Source of the DNA: Alphaproteobacteria bacterium
GTDB taxonomy: Bacteria > Pseudomonadota > Alphaproteobacteria > Rhodobacterales > Rhodobacteraceae
Assembly (NCBI GenBank): GCA_030431485.1
Contig: JAUIIR010000012.1
Coordinates: 1 to 64,000, forward strand
Direction: 5' to 3'
DNA length: 64,000 nt
Within the stretch, counting starts at the first letter, position 1. Every line of letters begins with the position of its first letter. The notes beneath the pieces were generated by a model that did no database searches, was not told the origin of the DNA, and was given only the letters and a program-made list of their open reading frames with translations. Shown one piece after another: positions 17,135-25,477 of this stretch. A program made the translations under genes and the position numbers.

Positions 17135-18439
17135 TTGACAAAATATCTTTGGATGGCAGCCATTTCGCTGCCTGTTGCACTATCTTTTTCAGTTGTTCCA
17201 AGCGCCGCACAAAACAGTTCTGTTCGCGAAGAAAGCCAAGGCATGGTCTTGCTGCGCGGGCTGCCGACACTGGAGACATCTCACAGCGTCGCGATTGTGG
17301 AGCTTGACCCCGAGTCAGAAAACTTTGGAGCAATCCTGAGCGAAGTCGATCAGCCCGACATGGCTGAACCATTTCATCACCTCTACTACAGTCCGAACGG
17401 CCGTCTTTACACGACCGGCCTCGATCCCGAATGCAGTCTGGCTGAAATCGGACTGGCGCGCGATGCAAGCGGTGCTCCGACCGTGACCGGTTTTGACTGC
17501 CTCGATACCGGCGGCCAGATGGTCGGAGAAGACATCATGTGGACGATGTCGAACGGCACAGAGTACATGTTCGTGACCTTCATGGGCGGCCTCGGCGGCG
17601 ACGATGGCGGCTCTGTCGGTGTGTTTGATACGCAGACAAACGAAGTCGTCAAAATCATCGAAGCCCGAAAAAGCCAGGTTGGTGACGGTGAACCCTACAT
17701 CATGTATCCCCACGGCATTTCCGCCTTCGAAGACCGGATGGTCGTGTCTTCGACAATTCACCCGGATCTTGCCACGGGTGTCGGAAACAGTGTGACAATC
17801 ATTGACCTCAACACGCTTGAGCCGATCCAGACCATCACGGTTGAAGCCGAAAAACCGATTGGTTTTCCGTCGTCACCCGTTGAAGTGCTTTTCGCGCGGC
17901 CCTCTATTCACCCAGACATCGAGCCGGCTGTTTTGGTGAACACAATGTTCGGGTTCGAAACCTGGTCGATCCCCTATGATGCCTCTTCAAAGTCATTTGG
18001 CGAGGCCGAGGTGATCTACTCGGGCGCTGCAAATGGGACTGCCGTGCCTCTGGAATTCTACGGCACCGAAGACGAACTCTTTATCAGTCACGCCTTGCCC
18101 GGCGTCGTGAAACGCTACGACATCTCGAAACTTCCCGAACTTGTTTCGAGCGGCCCGGATATCGTTGCCGATATCGGCGCGCATCACATGATCTTTTTCT
18201 CGTCCGCCTCAGGCCGCGAATTGATCGCCATTCAGAACAACCTTCTGAACCTGGGGAATGCCGCAGACAATGATCCGACGGACGTCGACTTTATCGCGGG
18301 AGTGAACGCACATACGATCACTGTTCACGATCTGGCGACCGGCGAACGACTTGGAACCATCGATTTCAAAGGCACCTACAACAAGGGCGTTGAAAATGTC
18401 GAAGCGCTCTTTGGTTCTGGCTTTGTCCATCACCACTAA
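17135..18439 (+). CDS. Secreted beta-propeller, selenium-binding/methanethiol-oxidase-like
   Basis: 434 residues. The start is taken as TTG 17135, because GGGAGG ends seven bases before it and a signal peptide follows at once (cleaved after SAAQ). ATG 17120 is in frame but overlaps that ribosome binding site. The mature part has propeller-like repeats: PFHHLYYSPNGRLYTTGL, YMFVTFMGGLGG, YPHGISAFEDRMVVSS, SVTIIDLNTLEPIQTI. The HH pair, ..TFMGG and PHG.. spacing resemble the SBP56/methanethiol oxidase superfamily, but identity is distant. It overlaps the di-heme gene by 44 bases. Methanethiol oxidase (MtoX) is a secreted copper enzyme known to sit beside a mauG gene, which fits this context. The C-terminus ends in three His. 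Confidence 0.55.
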   Translation: MTKYLWMAAISLPVALSFSVVPSAAQNSSVREESQGMVLLRGLPTLETSHSVAIVELDPESENFGAILSEVDQPDMAEPFHHLYYSPNGRLYTTGLDPECSLAEIGLARDASGAPTVTGFDCLDTGGQMVGEDIMWTMSNGTEYMFVTFMGGLGGDDGGSVGVFDTQTNEVVKIIEARKSQVGDGEPYIMYPHGISAFEDRMVVSSTIHPDLATGVGNSVTIIDLNTLEPIQTITVEAEKPIGFPSSPVEVLFARPSIHPDIEPAVLVNTMFGFETWSIPYDASSKSFGEAEVIYSGAANGTAVPLEFYGTEDELFISHALPGVVKRYDISKLPELVSSGPDIVADIGAHHMIFFSSASGRELIAIQNNLLNLGNAADNDPTDVDFIAGVNAHTITVHDLATGERLGTIDFKGTYNKGVENVEALFGSGFVHHH

Positions 18440-19571
18440 GGCGCGACACATCCTGGGGACCGTCAGCCGAGCGCTGGCGGCCCTCTTCATTTGCGCGGGG
18501 CTTGGCGGTCAGACGCTAACCGCAGGCACAAGTCCCCGACCGATCGAAGGCTTTGAGGCCCCGTTCGTGTTCGGAAGGTTCGCCATTCCAGCCGACAACC
18601 CTTTGACACAAGAAGCGTTTGAGCTGGGGCGTCGGCTTTTCTACGATCCAATTCTGTCTGGCGACAATTCAATGTCTTGCGCGTCCTGTCATGAGCAAGA
18701 GCGCGCGTTTACGGACGGGCGCGCGCTGGCGATCGGGCGTGACGGTGAAGAACTTGAATTCAACAGCATGTCTTTGGCGAACTTGCTGTGGGGACCGCAG
18801 CTCTTTTTTTGGGATGGTCGCAGTCCCAGCCTGGAACATCAGGTTCTTGAGCCACTTTTGAACCCTTTTGAGATGAACCAACCTCTGGACGCACTGGTTG
18901 CCGAACTCTCGGCTGATCCTGTGTACCCGGCGATGTTCGAGGCCGCATATGGTCGCCTGGACGAGCACAGTATCTCGCGCGCGCTCGCAACCTTTTTGCG
19001 CCTGCTGATTTCATCCGACAGCAAATATGACCGATACCTCTTGGGCGACGCTGTCCTGACGGATCAGGAAGAGCTGGGCCGAAAACTCTTCATGGCTCAT
19101 CCGGACGTCAAAACATCGCTTCGGGGCGGGAACTGCATTGATTGCCACAGTCAATTCGTGACGGCCGGGTTCAGTGATGGGTTCGACGGGTTCAGCAACA
19201 ATGGCCTCGATCCCGATGCCGATCTCAAGCCAGGCTTGGCGGCAACAACGAATTACGGCCCCGATTTCGGGAAATTCAAAGTTCCGAGCTTGCGGAATAT
19301 CGCAGTCACAGGTCCGTATATGCATGACGGCCGATTTGACACTCTCGAAGACGTCATGGCGCACTACAATCATGGCATCGTGCGCAGCAAGACACTGAGC
19401 CCCCTTATCCTTGAGGCAGACAATCTGGTTGCTGACCCCACCGCAGCCTTGGGTCTACGGCTGGAACAGCATGAAATTGATGCGATTATTGCCTTTCTAC
19501 ACACTCTGACCGATCAGACATTTTTAGATGATCCAGCGTTTTCAAACCCTTTCGAAGGAGAGCCCCGTTGA
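18396..19571 (+). CDS. MauG/MbnH-type di-heme cytochrome c peroxidase family protein
   Basis: 391 residues with a signal-like hydrophobic stretch (ALAALFICAGLGG) and two c-type heme sites: CASCH (near residue 88) and CIDCH (near residue 248). The C-terminal region has VPSLRNIAVTGPYMHDGRF. In MauG the Tyr of the matching PYMHDG segment is the unusual axial heme ligand, so this looks MauG/MbnH-like, not like an ordinary peroxidase that uses Met. Such enzymes make high-valent iron and oxidise tryptophan in a partner protein. ATG 18396 lies inside the upstream gene and is preceded by AAGGGCG. The next gene encodes the expected partner type, MbnP, overlapping by 4 bases. Confidence 0.82.
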   Translation: MSKRSLVLALSITTKARHILGTVSRALAALFICAGLGGQTLTAGTSPRPIEGFEAPFVFGRFAIPADNPLTQEAFELGRRLFYDPILSGDNSMSCASCHEQERAFTDGRALAIGRDGEELEFNSMSLANLLWGPQLFFWDGRSPSLEHQVLEPLLNPFEMNQPLDALVAELSADPVYPAMFEAAYGRLDEHSISRALATFLRLLISSDSKYDRYLLGDAVLTDQEELGRKLFMAHPDVKTSLRGGNCIDCHSQFVTAGFSDGFDGFSNNGLDPDADLKPGLAATTNYGPDFGKFKVPSLRNIAVTGPYMHDGRFDTLEDVMAHYNHGIVRSKTLSPLILEADNLVADPTAALGLRLEQHEIDAIIAFLHTLTDQTFLDDPAFSNPFEGEPR

Positions 19572-20302
19572 GAGGATCTGCTTTGCTCATGTCGGCGGCC
19601 TTGTGTGCTTCCGTCACCTTGTTCTGCCCGGCGCGCGTCGCAGCCGAAGACACCCGGCGGCTTGAGATCACCTTTGTCGCATCGTCCCAGGGCGCGCCCT
19701 TTGTCTTTGATGAGTTCGCCTATTCGGATCCTGTCGGTGGCGAGCCGGTCATGTTCCGGGACATCCGGTTTTATGCAAGTGGGCTGAAGCTGCGCAACGC
19801 GACCGAAGAGTTTGCCGAAGCCGACAGCTATCACTTGGTCCGTTTTGATGCGAGAAGCCCGACAGACAAGGTCGTTCTTGACAATGTCCCACTCGGCGAA
19901 ATCGACGAGATCGAGATGTCGATCGGTCTGGACCCAGAAGCGAATGGTTCGATCATGCCGCGCGGCGATCTTGATCCCAATAGCCGAATGGCCTGGAACT
20001 GGGAAATCGGCTACAAATTTCTGCTGGCCGAGGGCGCCCTCATGGTTGGTGACAAGCTGGAACCTCTTGTCTATCACGTCGGTTTCAATGAAAGCCTGAG
20101 AACCCTTCGGTTGCCCGTTTCAATTGGGAAAGAGGACATGTCTCTAACCCTGGACGTTGACGTTCTGGCTCTTTTTGCGGGCGTGAACACGATCGACATG
20201 TCTGCACTTCCAACGATCAAGATGAACCGAGCGGATGCCAGTATGCTGGCCGACAACTTCACGACGTTTGTGAACGTGAGATCGGACGAGGCACGCGATT
20301 GA
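19568..20302 (+). CDS. MbnP-family periplasmic copper-binding protein
   Basis: 244 residues with a signal peptide (about 1-26, ending RVAA). The family hallmark MAWNWEIGYKFLLAEG is at residues 141-156, with Trp143 and Trp145. In the characterised MbnP, the MbnH di-heme enzyme turns one tryptophan into kynurenine to build a copper site; which Trp would be the target here is not known. The start is TTG 19568, sharing TTGA with the stop of the MbnH-type gene, and AAGGAG lies eight bases upstream. No methanobactin precursor was seen nearby. Confidence 0.82.
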   Translation: MRGSALLMSAALCASVTLFCPARVAAEDTRRLEITFVASSQGAPFVFDEFAYSDPVGGEPVMFRDIRFYASGLKLRNATEEFAEADSYHLVRFDARSPTDKVVLDNVPLGEIDEIEMSIGLDPEANGSIMPRGDLDPNSRMAWNWEIGYKFLLAEGALMVGDKLEPLVYHVGFNESLRTLRLPVSIGKEDMSLTLDVDVLALFAGVNTIDMSALPTIKMNRADASMLADNFTTFVNVRSDEARD

Positions 20303-20765: not shown

Positions 20766-22010
20766 ATGAAACACCTATTCACGACAGCGGCGGCTGTTCT
20801 TGCGCTCAGCGCCGGAAGCGCTTTTGCACAACAGTGTGGCGCAAATACCGGCGAGGCGGCCACGGGCGAGCCGATCAAGGTTGGCGGCATCTACGGCGAT
20901 GCGGCTCCGGGAGATTTCGGCACAGCGTCACGGACCGCTGATGCCTATTTCGACTGTGTGAACGCCAATGGTGGGATCCATGGTCGCCCGATTGAGTATC
21001 TGACCGAGAATGACCAGTGGAACCCGGAACTTGCAGCTCAGGCCGCGGCAAAACTGATCGACGACGAGGGCGTGGTGGCCATCGTCGGCAACGGGTCTTT
21101 CGTGGAAATGGCGGTCAATGCGCAGAAATACCAGGACAGCGGCATCATGGCGATGGCCTCTGCCTGTGCGGTGTCCGAGTGCTTTGAAAGCCCCAGCATA
21201 GTGTCCACCAACCAGGGGCCCCTGCCCTCTACCGTTGGTGCGGCGCAATACATGGTCGAGGAGCAGGGCGCGACGAATATCTCGTGCATCGGCCTGGCCA
21301 TTCCCAACGTTGGCCCCTGGTCTTGCGGCGCGATGGAAGCCTACATGGAGTCCAAGGGTTTGGCCGGCTCCAGCGTCCTGCTGAACCCGGCAGCGCCGGA
21401 TGTGAACTCTGGCCTGCTAGAGGCGATTGCCTCGGGTGCGGACAGCATTCTGGTCAACCTGCCGGGTGGTCTGGCGATTGCCTTCCTGAAGGCGGCGGAA
21501 GAGCAGGATCTGCGCGACGCCTTCACATGGTCGTCCTCGACCCCGATGTACGACCTGTCGATCCCGGCCGCGCTTGGCGACTACTGGAACAACGGTTCGA
21601 TCTTTGTGAACGCAGAGCTTGCGCCCTTCGATGATGGCGGCCCGGACAACCAGAACTGGAGCGCCGTGATGGACGCCTTTGACGATCAGAGCACGACGCG
21701 CGATACGTTCTCACAGTCTGGTTTCCTGACCGCGAACATCTTTGTCGACACGCTGTTGAAAATGGATCCGGCGGACGTGGACGACCGCGCCAAGGTGCGC
21801 GAGGCGATCGTGGCCATCAAGGGCTACGAGTCCGACCTGATGTGTGGACCTTATTATGTGGGCGAGTCTGACTTCCACATGCCGAACCACGCTGGACATA
21901 TGGTTGTCATCAAGGATGGCGGCTTTGAGGTTGTCCGCGACTGCTACGAATACGACAGCCCCTATTTCGAGAAGCACATCGCGCTCGAAAAAGAAATGGG
22001 CCTCCGCTGA
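20766..22010 (+). CDS. Branched-chain-type ABC transporter substrate-binding protein
   Basis: 414 residues with a signal peptide (cleaved after SAFAQ) and a periplasmic binding fold of the Leu/Ile/Val-binding class (IKVGGIYGDAAPGDFG, then DDEGVVAIVGNGSF). These proteins also bind amides, aromatic acids and other small organics. A GGAGG ribosome binding site precedes the ATG. Four Cys (three early and one late, as in LMCGPYY) could form disulfides. It heads the importer operon with permease, permease-ATPase fusion and ATPase genes. The substrate is not evident; the neighbouring GMC and kinase genes suggest an alcohol or phenolic compound. Confidence 0.92.
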   Translation: MKHLFTTAAAVLALSAGSAFAQQCGANTGEAATGEPIKVGGIYGDAAPGDFGTASRTADAYFDCVNANGGIHGRPIEYLTENDQWNPELAAQAAAKLIDDEGVVAIVGNGSFVEMAVNAQKYQDSGIMAMASACAVSECFESPSIVSTNQGPLPSTVGAAQYMVEEQGATNISCIGLAIPNVGPWSCGAMEAYMESKGLAGSSVLLNPAAPDVNSGLLEAIASGADSILVNLPGGLAIAFLKAAEEQDLRDAFTWSSSTPMYDLSIPAALGDYWNNGSIFVNAELAPFDDGGPDNQNWSAVMDAFDDQSTTRDTFSQSGFLTANIFVDTLLKMDPADVDDRAKVREAIVAIKGYESDLMCGPYYVGESDFHMPNHAGHMVVIKDGGFEVVRDCYEYDSPYFEKHIALEKEMGLR

Positions 22011-22022
22011 TCCTCCCGTCGG

Positions 22023-22042
22023 GGCCCGGCTTAGGCCGGGCC
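22023..22042 (+). terminator. Hairpin after the binding-protein gene (attenuator)
   Basis: A perfect 8-bp stem GGCCCGGC-TTAG-GCCGGGCC, 13 bases past the stop. Only two T follow. Typical of importer operons, it probably lets the binding protein be made in excess over the membrane genes. Confidence 0.75.
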
Positions 22043-22067
22043 TTGTACTTCAGACAATTGGTGCAAA

Positions 22068-23021
22068 ATGCAACGAGACACCATTCTCAATTGGGCGGTC
22101 CTGACCGTTGTACTGGTCGGAGCCGTTGTCTTTTTGACGTGGGGCAAACCGTTCCGTGTGTCGGGTCTGTTCATCATGTCGGGTCTTGCAATCGGCGCGC
22201 TTTACGCGCTTGGCGGGATCGGCATCGTGGTGCTGTACCGGGCCACGGGCGTGCTGAATTTCGCAAGCGGGGCCGCTGGGGCAGCGGGCGTCATGACGGC
22301 CTGGCAGTTCGGACAATGGGGCTTTCCCGCCCCGGTCGGTTGGGCTGTTGCCATCGTGATCGCCGCCGCAATTTCGGTAGGATACGGGCGTACGCTGGCA
22401 CCGATGCTGGCGTGGCGAGAGCCGATTGTGAAGGCTGTCGCGACGTTGGGCCTTGCCTTGATCGTCCTTGGAATAGTGAATTTTCTCTGGAACGACGATC
22501 CGCGCAGCATTGATCTGCCGACCGACAATCTGGCCGTGCGCATCATGGGGCTGCGCGTCACCGGTACACGCATTCTGGCCTTTGCGGCCTCAGTCGGGAT
22601 CGTCATCGCCATCACGCTCTACCTCAATCGGACGGTGATCGGGTTGCAGATGCGCTCGCTTGCCAATGACCGGGACCTGTCGGATCTGCTGGGCATTCCG
22701 ATCCTCAGGGTCGAGACCGTGGCCTGGGTCATCGCAGGCGTGATTGCTGGCTTTACCGGGCTGATGTTCGGCACGCTGATCCGGCTTGAGCCGACGCTGA
22801 TCACCTTCATGGTCATTCCCTCCATTGCGGCCGCGATTGCCGGTCGTCTGGATAACCTGTGGATTGTCCTTTTTGCCGGGCTGGCAATGGGGCTGATCGA
22901 ATCCCTGCTGACCCTGTCACAGACATTCAAAGGCGTGCGCCCGCTGGCGCCCTACGTGATTGCCGCTGCCGTTCTGATTTGGCAGCAACGCACGGTTCGC
23001 CTGACATTCGGGGGCAATTGA
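22068..23021 (+). CDS. Branched-chain-type ABC transporter permease (LivH-like)
   Basis: 317 residues with about eight to nine hydrophobic segments. LivH-type features are IGALYALGGIGIVVLYRATG near the N-terminus and the cytoplasmic loop with MRSLANDRDLSDLLGIP. The stop shares one base with the next start (TGATG), so translation is coupled to the fusion gene. Confidence 0.92.
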   Translation: MQRDTILNWAVLTVVLVGAVVFLTWGKPFRVSGLFIMSGLAIGALYALGGIGIVVLYRATGVLNFASGAAGAAGVMTAWQFGQWGFPAPVGWAVAIVIAAAISVGYGRTLAPMLAWREPIVKAVATLGLALIVLGIVNFLWNDDPRSIDLPTDNLAVRIMGLRVTGTRILAFAASVGIVIAITLYLNRTVIGLQMRSLANDRDLSDLLGIPILRVETVAWVIAGVIAGFTGLMFGTLIRLEPTLITFMVIPSIAAAIAGRLDNLWIVLFAGLAMGLIESLLTLSQTFKGVRPLAPYVIAAAVLIWQQRTVRLTFGGN

Positions 23022-24775
23022 TGGGCCAGTTCAGTCTTTTGAAGGGCATCAGCCCCTGGACCCTTGCGATCGCCATCGCAGCAGTCGTTGTCCTTCCAGC
23101 CACGTCCGGCGGGCAGTGGATCAAGATATTCACCTCGACCGCCTGCTTTACCCTGGCCATCGCCGGCATCGCTTTCATGTATGCACGACTTGGCATGGTG
23201 AACCTTGCGCAGATCGCGCTGATGGGGCTTGGCGGCTGGGTGACCTTGCGCCTGAACCACGCCTTCGCTCTGCCATTTGAGCTGAACGTGCTGCTTGGCG
23301 GTTTTGTGACGATGGTGTTTGGCGCGGTGCTGGCCATTCCTGCGCTGCGGATGCGGGGGCTTTACCTTGCGCTTGTGACGCTCATGGCGGCGGGCGCGCT
23401 TGAGATCGTCTTTGGCACCTACGGCTTCCCGAACGGGGGCGAGGGGTTCTGGGGCGTGCAAACCTCGCTCGCGGACAAGATGCGCCGCCCCGCGCTGGCG
23501 CAATCGGACGCGGCCTATCTGCGCTATGTGCTTGTCGTCGTGATCCTCGGCTTTTTGCTGATCGAGGCGCATCGGCGCACCGCGCCGGGCCGCGCCTGGG
23601 CGATGATCCGACGGTCCGAGGCCGCGGCAATGGCGGCGGGTGTGAACGTCACCCTCTACAAGACATGGGCCTTTGCCATTTCCGGACTCTTGGGCGGCAT
23701 CGCCGGGGGGCTTTTGGCTGGCAGCCTTGGCCTTTTGGATCCCGGCAGCTTCCGCGCGCCAGAGAGCATTCTGCTTTTCGCCCTCGCCGTTGTTGGTGGC
23801 GCGCGGTTCTGGCTGGGCGCCGTGATTGGCGCGGCGCTTTACCGTATCCTGCCTGCCCTGCTGAATGACTGGGGCCTCGATGCTGACCTGTCGTTTGTGA
23901 TTTTTGGCGCAGGGCTGCTGCACGCGGTGATCACCGCGCCGGACGGGATTGCGGGACAAATTCTGGCAGGGTTGAAACGCAAGGAAAAAGACGCGGTCCA
24001 AGTCACGCATGTGGACACAAACCAGATGAAGGCAGAGGCGCAAGGCGCTGCGCAACAAACGACGCAAGCGGCCGTGGAACTGAATGACGTCTCGGTTCAA
24101 TTCGGCGGCGTCAAGGCGCTGCAAAACATCTCTGCCCGGTTCGAACAGCCCATCACGGGCATCATTGGCCCCAATGGTGCGGGCAAGACGACCTTGATGA
24201 ATGTCTTTTCTGGCTTTGTGACCGCGCGCGGCACAGTGCAGATCGGGGATCTTGTCCTGACCGAGCTTGCCCCGTCAGGGCGCAGCCAGGCGGGCCTGCG
24301 CCGGTCCTTCCAGAAAGAGGAAATCGCCAATGATCTGAGCGTGCGGGACAACATCCTGGTGCAGCTCGACAGTATCGGGGGCAACAAGGATGACCTGGAC
24401 CGGGCCATCGCCTTTGTCGGCCTCTCTGGTATGGAAGACATCATGGGCGCAGAGCTCAACGCCTTTGAACGGAGGCTTGTCGATCTGGCGCGCTGCATCG
24501 TGGGTGATCCAAAGATCATCATGCTGGACGAACCCGCGGGCGGGCTGTCCAGCAGTGAGACAGACCGCCTGGGCGATCTGATCCTGCACCTGCCAGAGGT
24601 GACCAAGGCCAAGGTCCTTGTCATCGACCACGATGTCGACCTGATCAAACGGATTTGCGCGGAAACGCTGGTGCTGGACTTCGGTCAGATGGTCGCCTTT
24701 GGCCCGACCGAAGAGGTGCTGAACAATCCCAAGGTCAAGGCCGCCTATCTTGGCACTGCGGAAGAGGTTGTGTGA
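23021..24775 (+). CDS. Fused branched-chain-type permease (LivM) and ATPase (LivG)
   Basis: 584 residues. Residues 1 to about 320 form a LivM-like permease (YARLGMVNLAQIALMGLGGW; MRGLYLALVTLMAAG). After a linker rich in Gln/Ala, an ABC ATPase begins near residue 350, with Walker A GPNGAGKTT, Walker B IIMLDEPAGGL and H-loop VIDHDVD. The ABC signature is degenerate: LNAFERRLVDLARC stands where LSYGQ/GGQ is expected. The start is ATG 23021, overlapping the upstream stop. The next gene starts directly after this stop. Confidence 0.9.
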   Translation: MGQFSLLKGISPWTLAIAIAAVVVLPATSGGQWIKIFTSTACFTLAIAGIAFMYARLGMVNLAQIALMGLGGWVTLRLNHAFALPFELNVLLGGFVTMVFGAVLAIPALRMRGLYLALVTLMAAGALEIVFGTYGFPNGGEGFWGVQTSLADKMRRPALAQSDAAYLRYVLVVVILGFLLIEAHRRTAPGRAWAMIRRSEAAAMAAGVNVTLYKTWAFAISGLLGGIAGGLLAGSLGLLDPGSFRAPESILLFALAVVGGARFWLGAVIGAALYRILPALLNDWGLDADLSFVIFGAGLLHAVITAPDGIAGQILAGLKRKEKDAVQVTHVDTNQMKAEAQGAAQQTTQAAVELNDVSVQFGGVKALQNISARFEQPITGIIGPNGAGKTTLMNVFSGFVTARGTVQIGDLVLTELAPSGRSQAGLRRSFQKEEIANDLSVRDNILVQLDSIGGNKDDLDRAIAFVGLSGMEDIMGAELNAFERRLVDLARCIVGDPKIIMLDEPAGGLSSSETDRLGDLILHLPEVTKAKVLVIDHDVDLIKRICAETLVLDFGQMVAFGPTEEVLNNPKVKAAYLGTAEEVV

Positions 24776-25477
24776 ATGGGCTTGGTGATTGAACATCTTT
24801 CTGTTGAAGCGGACGGTCGCACCGTGGTGAAATCTGCAAGCCTGTCGGTCGAGGCCGGACAGATCGCCTGCGTTTTGGGGCCCAACGGCGCCGGGAAATC
24901 GGAACTGGTGCTGGGTGTCGCAGGCAAGCTTGTCAAATCGGCGGGCAGCGTGACCGTTGACGGCCAGGACATCAGCAAAGCCAAGCCCGCGCAGATCCGC
25001 GCGGCTGGCGTCGCCGCTGTGCCCGAGGGCCACCGCGTGCTGAGTGCGCTGAGCGTCGAAGACAATCTGCGCGCCGCAGCCTCCGGGTTGGACACCGACA
25101 CCGCTGAGCGGCTGGCCTTTGTCTATGACACCTTCCCGGAATTGGCAGAGCGCAAACCGCAGCGCGCGGGCAGCATGTCAGGCGGTCAGCAACAGATGCT
25201 TGCCATCGGCCACGCATTGATGGCCAAACCCAAGTACCTGCTGGTTGATGAGATGTCTCTGGGCCTTGCCCCTCTGATCGTTAAGCGTTTGGCAGGGATT
25301 GTTGCCAACCTTCGGGATCAGGGAACCGGGATCATCCTGATTGAGCAATTCACCGAAATGGCGCTTGGCCTGTCAGATACCGCCTTCGTCATGGTCCAGG
25401 GTGAGATGCGCTTTGACGGCGCGGCCTCGGAACTGGCGGGCAATCCCGACAAGCTGCATAACCTGTACCTGGGATAA
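24776..25477 (+). CDS. Branched-chain-type ABC transporter ATPase (LivF-like)
   Basis: 233 residues with Walker A GPNGAGKSE, Q-loop VPEGHRVL, signature SGGQQQMLAIGHAL, Walker B LLVDEMSLGL and H-loop EQFTE. It is a LivF-type subunit. Its signature motif is intact, so it could supply the functional signature that the fused LivG domain lacks in a heterodimer. It begins immediately after the fusion gene's stop. Confidence 0.93.
   Translation: MGLVIEHLSVEADGRTVVKSASLSVEAGQIACVLGPNGAGKSELVLGVAGKLVKSAGSVTVDGQDISKAKPAQIRAAGVAAVPEGHRVLSALSVEDNLRAAASGLDTDTAERLAFVYDTFPELAERKPQRAGSMSGGQQQMLAIGHALMAKPKYLLVDEMSLGLAPLIVKRLAGIVANLRDQGTGIILIEQFTEMALGLSDTAFVMVQGEMRFDGAASELAGNPDKLHNLYLG

Follow-up and report, generated by a model that had tools for sequence, protein, structure and literature searches.

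A conserved three-gene cassette joins an exported SBP56-like propeller to an MbnH–MbnP pair in alpha- and gammaproteobacteria

Gene content of the cassette

A three-gene cassette occupies positions 17135–20302 on the + strand of a 64,000-nucleotide stretch of contig JAUIIR010000012.1 (Rhodobacteraceae, assembly GCA_030431485.1), referred to here as the window. The gene order is PROP (our label for an exported propeller protein), MbnH, and MbnP. PROP and MbnH overlap by 44 bases and MbnH and MbnP by 4. The PROP start codon, a TTG at 17135, lies directly 3' of a GGAGGA ribosome-binding site, and the gene stops at 18439. Coordinates and domain matches agree with the first-pass annotation of the window, which had described three overlapping genes for a propeller, a MauG/MbnH-type di-heme protein, and an MbnP protein. 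The genes and the sites discussed below are as follows.

17135..18439, + strand: PROP, exported 7-bladed beta-propeller, by profile and predicted fold a divergent member of the SBP56 superfamily (434 residues, TTG start, Sec signal by inspection)
17375..17380, + strand: HH motif H81–H82 of PROP, common to SBP56/MtoX proteins and to a sister propeller family
18428..18436, + strand: C-terminal His-His-His of PROP (H432–H434), directly before the stop codon
18396..19571, + strand: MbnH/MauG-type di-heme enzyme (391 residues)
18678..18692, + strand: first heme site of MbnH, CASCH (C95–H99)
19134..19148, + strand: second heme site of MbnH, CIDCH (C247–H251)
19365..19367, + strand: Y324 of MbnH, aligned to MauG chain position 294
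19568..20302, + strand: MbnP-family protein without the four-Cys pattern (244 residues)
19988..20002, + strand: MAWNW motif of MbnP, with M141 and the WxW pair (W143, W145); W143 is the predicted Trp-to-kynurenine site
20075..20077, + strand: H170 of MbnP, a predicted copper-ligand histidine

Conservation and spread of the cassette

Genome contigs of 84,980 species were scanned with six PROP peptide patterns, an approach that catches close relatives only. The scan yielded 40 loci, and one more from genome G707 brought the set to 41. All were found by PROP alone; MbnH and MbnP had no part in the search. In 36 of the 41 loci all three are open genes with the order PROP, MbnH, MbnP, and the cassette occurs in both alpha- and gammaproteobacteria. 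A survey of propeller-mauG-mbnP synteny had been proposed with the first-pass annotation, and this outcome answers it: because the order is conserved across two classes, the observation of the cassette is confirmed, and more strongly than was possible at first reading. Among the hosts are Ruegeria, Leisingera, Thalassotalea, Colwellia, Alteromonas, Paraglaciecola, Bowmanella, Simiduia, Vibrio sagamiensis, and one Woeseiaceae genome.

The other five loci comprise three at contig edges (L066 and L068, where the contig stops within PROP, and L050, where it stops after MbnH), a decayed copy (L073), and a PROP without partners (L036). The decayed cassette lies at L073:9926-12153 in one Ruegeria genome; all three genes are broken, and fragments of each remain. 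The partnerless PROP, at L036:9941-11248, ends in AHH instead of HHH and is the only locus with room for partners that has none. Other gene families were detected in 12 neighborhoods out of 41 at most (flanks of up to 10 kb, simple gene picking). In the window, genes of a branched-chain amino-acid-type ATP-binding cassette (ABC) transporter lie immediately downstream of the cassette, at 20766–25477 (by inspection); an ABC transporter gene of that type is not widely conserved beside related cassettes.

The cassette seems to travel as a unit and to have spread horizontally. Of 17 genomes sampled from the genus of the window, one has PROP, the window's own, and vertical inheritance throughout the genus was rejected on this ground. 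GC content is 55.4% in the cassette and 60.2% in the rest of the window; just two of 305 overlapping cassette-sized windows are equally low, and both overlap the cassette. Pairwise protein distances of PROP, MbnH, and MbnP are correlated (Mantel r 0.89–0.93 across 36 loci; 0 of 999 permutations as high), which fits joint inheritance or joint transfer, two histories that the Mantel test cannot tell apart. Mean pairwise identity is highest for PROP (72%) and lowest for MbnP (46%), the pattern expected for an enzyme and its helper. A plasmid home was also considered and rejected, as a search of 72,556 plasmid records gave no match to PROP or MbnP.

Several Ruegeria loci (L037-L043, L046, L047) share a TTTGGTGCA-like element followed by a TGTGATATGACGT-like element, about 100 bases or less before the PROP start, which is a possible promoter or operator. 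A copper-responsive operator was dismissed for the window, where this shared element is missing.

MbnH and MbnP

The product of the second gene matches CCP_MauG (E = 1.9e-53) and contains two CXXCH motifs. Its best NCBIfam match is the MbnH model TIGR04039, at 248.8 bits under a curated cut-off of 362.85, and the best match of cassette MbnH among PDB sequences is 6e1c (E = 1.1e-55), deposited as 'Di-heme enzyme', which we take to be Methylosinus MbnH. Both CXXCH sites and Y324 are kept in 22/22 cassette MbnHs and in 15/15 others. Y324 aligns with position 294 of the MauG chain, taken as the distal position of the second heme, so that the residue there is Tyr and not Met. This tyrosine is presumably the heme ligand of MauG; peroxidases carry Met at that heme position. 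Since Y324 and both heme sites are kept, the cassette enzyme looks like a tryptophan-modifying MauG/MbnH enzyme rather than a peroxidase. A phylogenetic tree of 22 cassette MbnHs (out of 38 rows) and 15 MbnHs from the 17 other loci (the profile found no MbnH in L131 and L133) separates the cassette MbnHs from the rest by one branch with support of 100/100.

Cassette MbnP scores 113.6 bits against Pfam MbnP (PF20243), which passes the cut-off of 27, and 32.4 bits against the NCBIfam equivalog TIGR04052, which does not reach the cut-off of 140. M141, W143, W145, and H170 are present in all 37 cassette MbnPs; among 16 aligned canonical MbnPs, the Met is found in 14, WxW in 14, and the His (as H-x-G) in 15. 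The MAWNW motif aligns with MAWNW of the MbnP structure 7l6g (E = 0.64). We take these Met, WxW, and His positions to be the copper site of MbnP, on the assumption that copper in 7l6g is held by a His and a Met beside a kynurenine that MbnH makes from the first of the two WxW tryptophans. In a Foldseek search with the MbnP model, 7l6g chains were the only matches below 1e-4, at template modeling (TM) scores of 0.4–0.5. The copper site of CorA is described as two His, a water, and a kynurenine in the part of PMC3912023 cited here.

Cysteine content sets the cassette proteins apart. The window MbnP has two Cys, both in its first 20 residues. The other 36 cassette MbnPs have zero to three (29 have none), and beyond residue 30, 32 have none and four have two; canonical MbnPs have six to eight (n = 16). 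Judged from these sequences, the cassette MbnPs have lost the four-Cys pattern. The MbnP alignment (A2) comprised 24 of the 37 proteins. On this evidence the earlier naming of the second and third genes stands: MbnH by its CCP_MauG match, 6e1c match, and heme sites, and MbnP with its WNW hallmark by the Pfam cut-off passed and the conserved copper-site residues.

Family and predicted fold of the propeller

The window PROP scores 16.9 bits (E = 0.003) against Pfam SBP56 (PF05694), under the gathering cut-off of 34, and 20.6 bits (E = 3.2e-4) against the YVTN repeats of TIGR02276, under the cut-off of 27.85, so that for this single protein the YVTN E value is the better one. Across the family, 30 of 32 cassette propellers match SBP56 at E ≤ 1 (best 4.8e-5); matches to the YVTN repeat are fewer (18 of 32, best 3.2e-4). 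These 32, out of 39 propellers, form the PROP alignment (A1), from which L066 and L068, both cut off by the contig end, and the decayed L073 were excluded. Non-alphaproteobacterial PROPs have lipoprotein-type N-termini (17/17 in A1 by eye, 15/17 by a simple pattern).

A profile of the cassette family returned the SBP56 protein 2ece first among PDB entries (E = 0.037), with a designed propeller level at 0.038. The AlphaFold model of PROP has a mean predicted local distance difference test score (pLDDT) of 81 and the strand pattern of a propeller, and its first Foldseek match was the SBP56 structure 2ece (E = 3.2e-9, TM 0.58), with YncE-type propellers close behind (E = 2e-8). In hhalign comparisons with 21 SBP56 proteins, the cassette family reached 50.4% (E = 1.6e-4), a sister family of secreted propellers 98.4%, and the two combined 97.2%. 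A small control of five long proteins with LVIVD propeller repeats gave 17.7% (E = 1.4e-3), 11.4%, and 4.1%, respectively. Cassette and sister profiles match each other at 99.9%. Because the cassette family reaches 50% alone and 97%–98% is obtained with the sister family, its SBP56 link rests largely on the latter. Fold and collinear profile alignment together place the wider family in the SBP56 superfamily and leave the cassette family alone marginal.

By profile and predicted fold, PROP is a distant SBP56 relative. Assignment to YVTN/YncE or lactonase propellers was set aside on the long collinear profile match, on SBP56 as the top structure, and on the LVIVD control at 4%–18%; kinship to YncE-like propellers may also hold but is less specific than the SBP56 link, as judged with a small control. 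The first-pass annotation had called the propeller SBP56-like and proposed a hidden Markov model search and structure prediction against SBP56. Both came out in favor at the level of the family, with 2ece as first structure and 30 of 32 members matching SBP56. For the single protein the assignment is weak, as it fails the SBP56 and MtoX (methanethiol oxidase) cut-offs.

Conserved residues and sister propellers

H81, H82, H193, H350, and H351 are present in 32/32 cassette propellers, and E132, D133, E250, E307, M271, and W277 are likewise invariant among the 32. The HH motif (H81–H82), which aligns with the HH of SBP56 proteins, occurs in all 39 propellers. In the AlphaFold model, most residues shared with the sister family fall on predicted strands 80–85, 129–139, 192–198, 248–254, 305–310, and 349–356. 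Because this spacing suggests the first strands of successive blades, the shared His and acidic residues probably encircle the central channel at one mouth. Of 39 propellers, 38 end in HHH.

The sister propellers (L015-L026, L032) are secreted and 30%–35% identical to PROP. Neither MbnH nor MbnP was found beside them at E 1e-4 in 13 loci of 4–19 kb. Their alignment included 10 of the 13, leaving out L020 (masked by an antisense frame), L021 (internal stop; the same locus as L009), and L032. Like PROP, they have H81, H82, H193, H350, and H351 (10/10) and E132, D133, E250, E307, M271, and W277 (8–9/10), and eight of the 10 carry AGH at or near the C-terminus. Unlike PROP, they lack MbnH and MbnP as well as W136, H209, H319, H393, H398, H432, and H433; these residues, with C100 and C122, are found only in the MbnH-linked propellers when compared with the 10 sister propellers.

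W136 is the candidate residue for an alternative in which MbnH oxidizes or cross-links a PROP tryptophan into a protein-derived cofactor, in addition to or in place of acting on MbnP, and MbnP only delivers copper. The residue is invariant in the cassette (32/32), is replaced by F or L in all 10 MbnH-less sister propellers, and lies on predicted strand 129–139 with the shared acidic pair E132–D133. A precedent exists in MtoX, for which Eyice et al. proposed a tryptophan tryptophylquinone (TTQ) partly from a mauG neighbor, according to the part of PMC5739008 cited here. TTQ, however, requires two nearby Trp, and W277, the other invariant Trp, occurs as well in nine of 10 sister propellers, where MbnH is absent. 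MbnP with an intact WxW stands beside MbnH in all 36 complete cassettes, and MbnP is the known substrate of MbnH. We regard modification of the propeller as distinctly unlikely.

Other genes accompany the sister propellers. A membrane protein of ~490 residues lies nearby in at least five loci (L018, L019, L021, L022, and L025), with no convincing Pfam match in the two that were scanned, and a small exported protein lies nearby in L019, L024, and L025. The small protein of L025 resembles Cupredoxin_1 at 24.6 bits, under the cut-off of 27; that of L019 has no Pfam match, and that of L024 was compared by eye only. Sister propeller, membrane protein, and cupredoxin-like protein possibly make up another copper operon. 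One propeller family beside two types of copper protein is the best circumstantial argument that the propeller is itself a copper protein. Against the NCBIfam model for clade III lactonase-type NosZ, all seven sister propellers tested also gave weak matches (E = 2.6e-8 to 0.0034); the portion of PMC13122619 cited here names that clade. A copper cluster like that of nitrous-oxide reductase was rejected as unsupported, since the sister propellers match the MtoX model or a general propeller model better, and the clade III NosZ model is not among the models listed for the 32 cassette propellers.

Comparison with methanethiol oxidases

PROP could, as the first-pass annotation proposed, be a copper-dependent methanethiol oxidase of the MtoX type in which MbnH–MbnP replaces SCO1 and MauG. 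Its SBP56 kinship by profile and fold speaks for this, as do H81–H82 and E250, which align with the HH and the LEI-type Glu of SBP56 proteins. E250 is present in 32/32 cassette propellers; the human protein SELENBP1 is not itself in that alignment, and we take the HH and LEI Glu of SBP56 proteins to be SELENBP1 H73–H74 and E252. Similarity to SBP56, MtoX, and SELENBP1 extends to the propeller fold, a DPxSxx(Y/F) stretch, and the collinear profile alignment. MtoX operons carry SCO1/senC and mauG genes, as reported in the part of PMC5739008 cited here.

Other evidence speaks against it. PROP scores 10.4 bits (E = 0.15) against the MtoX model NF052453, for which the cut-off is 650. Six residues are essential for SELENBP1 activity, and HxxH is among those needed, according to the part of PMC10362175 cited here. 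The XHHX of SELENBP1 (H73–H74) has its counterpart in H81–H82. The HxxH copper motif (SELENBP1 H137, H140) is absent from the window PROP, in which the region aligned to SBP56 PHTIHC has no His pair; 14 of 32 cassette propellers have HP(L/F)H, located at the HH motif instead. The region aligned to SELENBP1 Asp189 reads Y-P-H193-G in PROP, in an uncertain register. Unlike SBP56 and MtoX proteins, PROP is under every family cut-off, has a signal peptide or lipobox, ends in HHH and not in a GGDC-type terminus, and is partnered with MbnH–MbnP in place of SCO1–MauG. As regards the SCO1/senC neighbor of MtoX operons, the gene neighborhoods show no additional widely conserved gene around the cassettes, no profile search for SCO1 itself having been made.

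The window's genome encodes a separate SBP56 protein elsewhere, at 575 bits against the SBP56 model. That protein reaches 111 of the 650 bits of the MtoX equivalog cut-off, so that it, too, may be something other than a methanethiol oxidase. An SBP56 search was set up for the genomes of 35 loci out of 41; L057 dropped out, and 34 were searched, many of them drafts of unstated completeness. SBP56 proteins over the cut-off were found in nine and in none of the other 25, with 9/17 alphaproteobacterial and 0/17 other cassette genomes positive, and therefore no link is seen to known methanethiol metabolism. Conversely, the MbnH profile matched no frame at E 1e-3 in 11 SBP56 stretches (11 genomes, mostly ~11 kb), which are not the mtoX-SCO1-mauG operons of PMC5739008. 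Taken with the bit score, the missing HxxH, and the separate host SBP56 protein, these counts do not sustain the methanethiol oxidase claim, and we consider it very unlikely. Methanethiol as PROP substrate is unsupported; MbnH–MbnP in place of SCO1 as copper supplier may be kept as a reasonable analogy.

Comparison with other MbnP–MbnH pairs

A survey of 398 genomes from the phylum found 19 with an MbnP that passes the cut-off. Two of them, the window's genome and G707, carry the cassette, and in the other 17 the surroundings of MbnP were inspected. MbnP precedes MbnH in 15/15 of those with both genes, and MbnH precedes MbnP in 36/36 cassettes. The MbnP homologs of L131 and L133 have no WxW and also no neighboring MbnH by profile, which fits WxW as the MbnH target. 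In L120, L123, L124, L126, and L128, and similarly in L119 and L130, a canonical MbnP–MbnH pair stands back to back with a surface-type protein of ~900–950 residues; the one scanned, from L123, has LVIVD propeller repeats and Calx-beta and PKD-like domains.

Like the established pairs (TIGR04052/TIGR04039, GenProp0940), the cassette joins a di-heme MauG-like enzyme to an adjacent MbnP-family protein and has in common with them the heme sites, the tyrosine position, and mostly the Met/WxW/His of the copper site. It differs in the reversed order, the separate MbnH branch, the few Cys of its MbnP, and the propeller as first gene. CorA–CorB and MopE–SACCP are analogous pairs. MbnP–MbnH pairs are described in PMC3621798 as occurring far outside methanobactin producers and were termed mysterious partners there in 2013; the portion of that paper cited here does not mention the propeller combination. 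No paper on a propeller–MbnH–MbnP combination was among the matches listed in the literature searched, which left most subscription papers, including the main MbnP paper, outside its scope.

These pairs also suggest that PROP may not be an enzyme. It could be an exported copper-binding or copper-sensing scaffold or a receptor-like surface protein within a copper scavenging or buffering system like CorA–CorB and MopE–SACCP. CorA and MopE, which have di-heme partners, are surface proteins with a suggested role in copper acquisition, as stated in the part of PMC3912023 cited here, and the lipoprotein-type N-termini of non-alphaproteobacterial PROPs would suit such a location. Some other MbnP–MbnH pairs adjoin a TonB-type gene (L125) or the LVIVD-repeat protein (L123), with no evident enzyme. 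However, among the three proteins PROP shows the strongest conservation, including the acidic and His residues at the predicted channel mouth, which suits catalysis better; its fold kin, SBP56, includes copper enzymes; and no conserved uptake gene was seen near the cassettes in 41 neighborhoods. A scaffold or receptor role is in our view unlikely.

Discussion

From the genes, synteny, families, predicted fold, and conserved residues described above, the best reading, to which we give an even chance, is that PROP is an exported SBP56-like cuproprotein with a dedicated MbnH–MbnP pair that supplies a kynurenine copper site and copper. PROP would be the effector. It would probably hold copper where histidine and acidic residues line the mouth of the central channel, and would serve as an oxidoreductase for a small substrate outside the cytoplasm; a thiol is a conservative guess, made by analogy from SBP56 kinship. 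The two hemes of MbnH would oxidize W143 of MbnP to kynurenine, and the kynurenine, M141, and H170 would together form a Cu(I) site. MbnP would then scavenge copper and pass it to PROP, perhaps via the C-terminal HHH tail.

Several observations weigh against this cuproprotein reading. PROP is under the SBP56 gathering cut-off, the cassette family by itself reaches just 50% against SBP56, and YncE-type propellers follow 2ece closely at a modest TM score. The MbnP model resembles 7l6g at a TM of only 0.4–0.5, and its segment around W143 has a pLDDT below 50, as does the C-terminal HHH region of the PROP model. The cupredoxin match of L025 does not pass its cut-off. In L036, neither MbnH nor MbnP was found at E 1e-5 within 10 kb downstream of PROP, although this copy may be a relic, and no conserved copper regulator or transporter was seen near the cassettes (41 neighborhoods, flanks of up to 10 kb). 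We infer the metal (copper binding by PROP and by MbnP), the modification (kynurenine), the copper transfer, and the enzymatic activity.

More tentatively, and short of an even chance, PROP may found a new class of exported SBP56-superfamily cuproenzymes, with a site made of HH, His193, E250/E307, HH350-351, and the His tail, and with copper received from a kynurenine protein made by its own MbnH. The cassette would then be a module of one enzyme, one modifier, and one chaperone that moves as a unit between alpha- and gammaproteobacteria, and the sister branch would use a cupredoxin. If so, copper partners of two different kinds would have joined the same propeller family.

We know of no established client for the kynurenine copper site of MbnP–MbnH pairs. 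In the cassette the pair is locked to one candidate client in many genomes, which makes the idea testable with one small operon. If the cuproprotein reading is true, it would provide a clear client for kynurenine copper proteins and an exported branch of the SBP56 copper enzymes, and the cassette would be a genetic marker for a copper-dependent activity in marine Ruegeria, Leisingera, Alteromonadales, and Vibrio.

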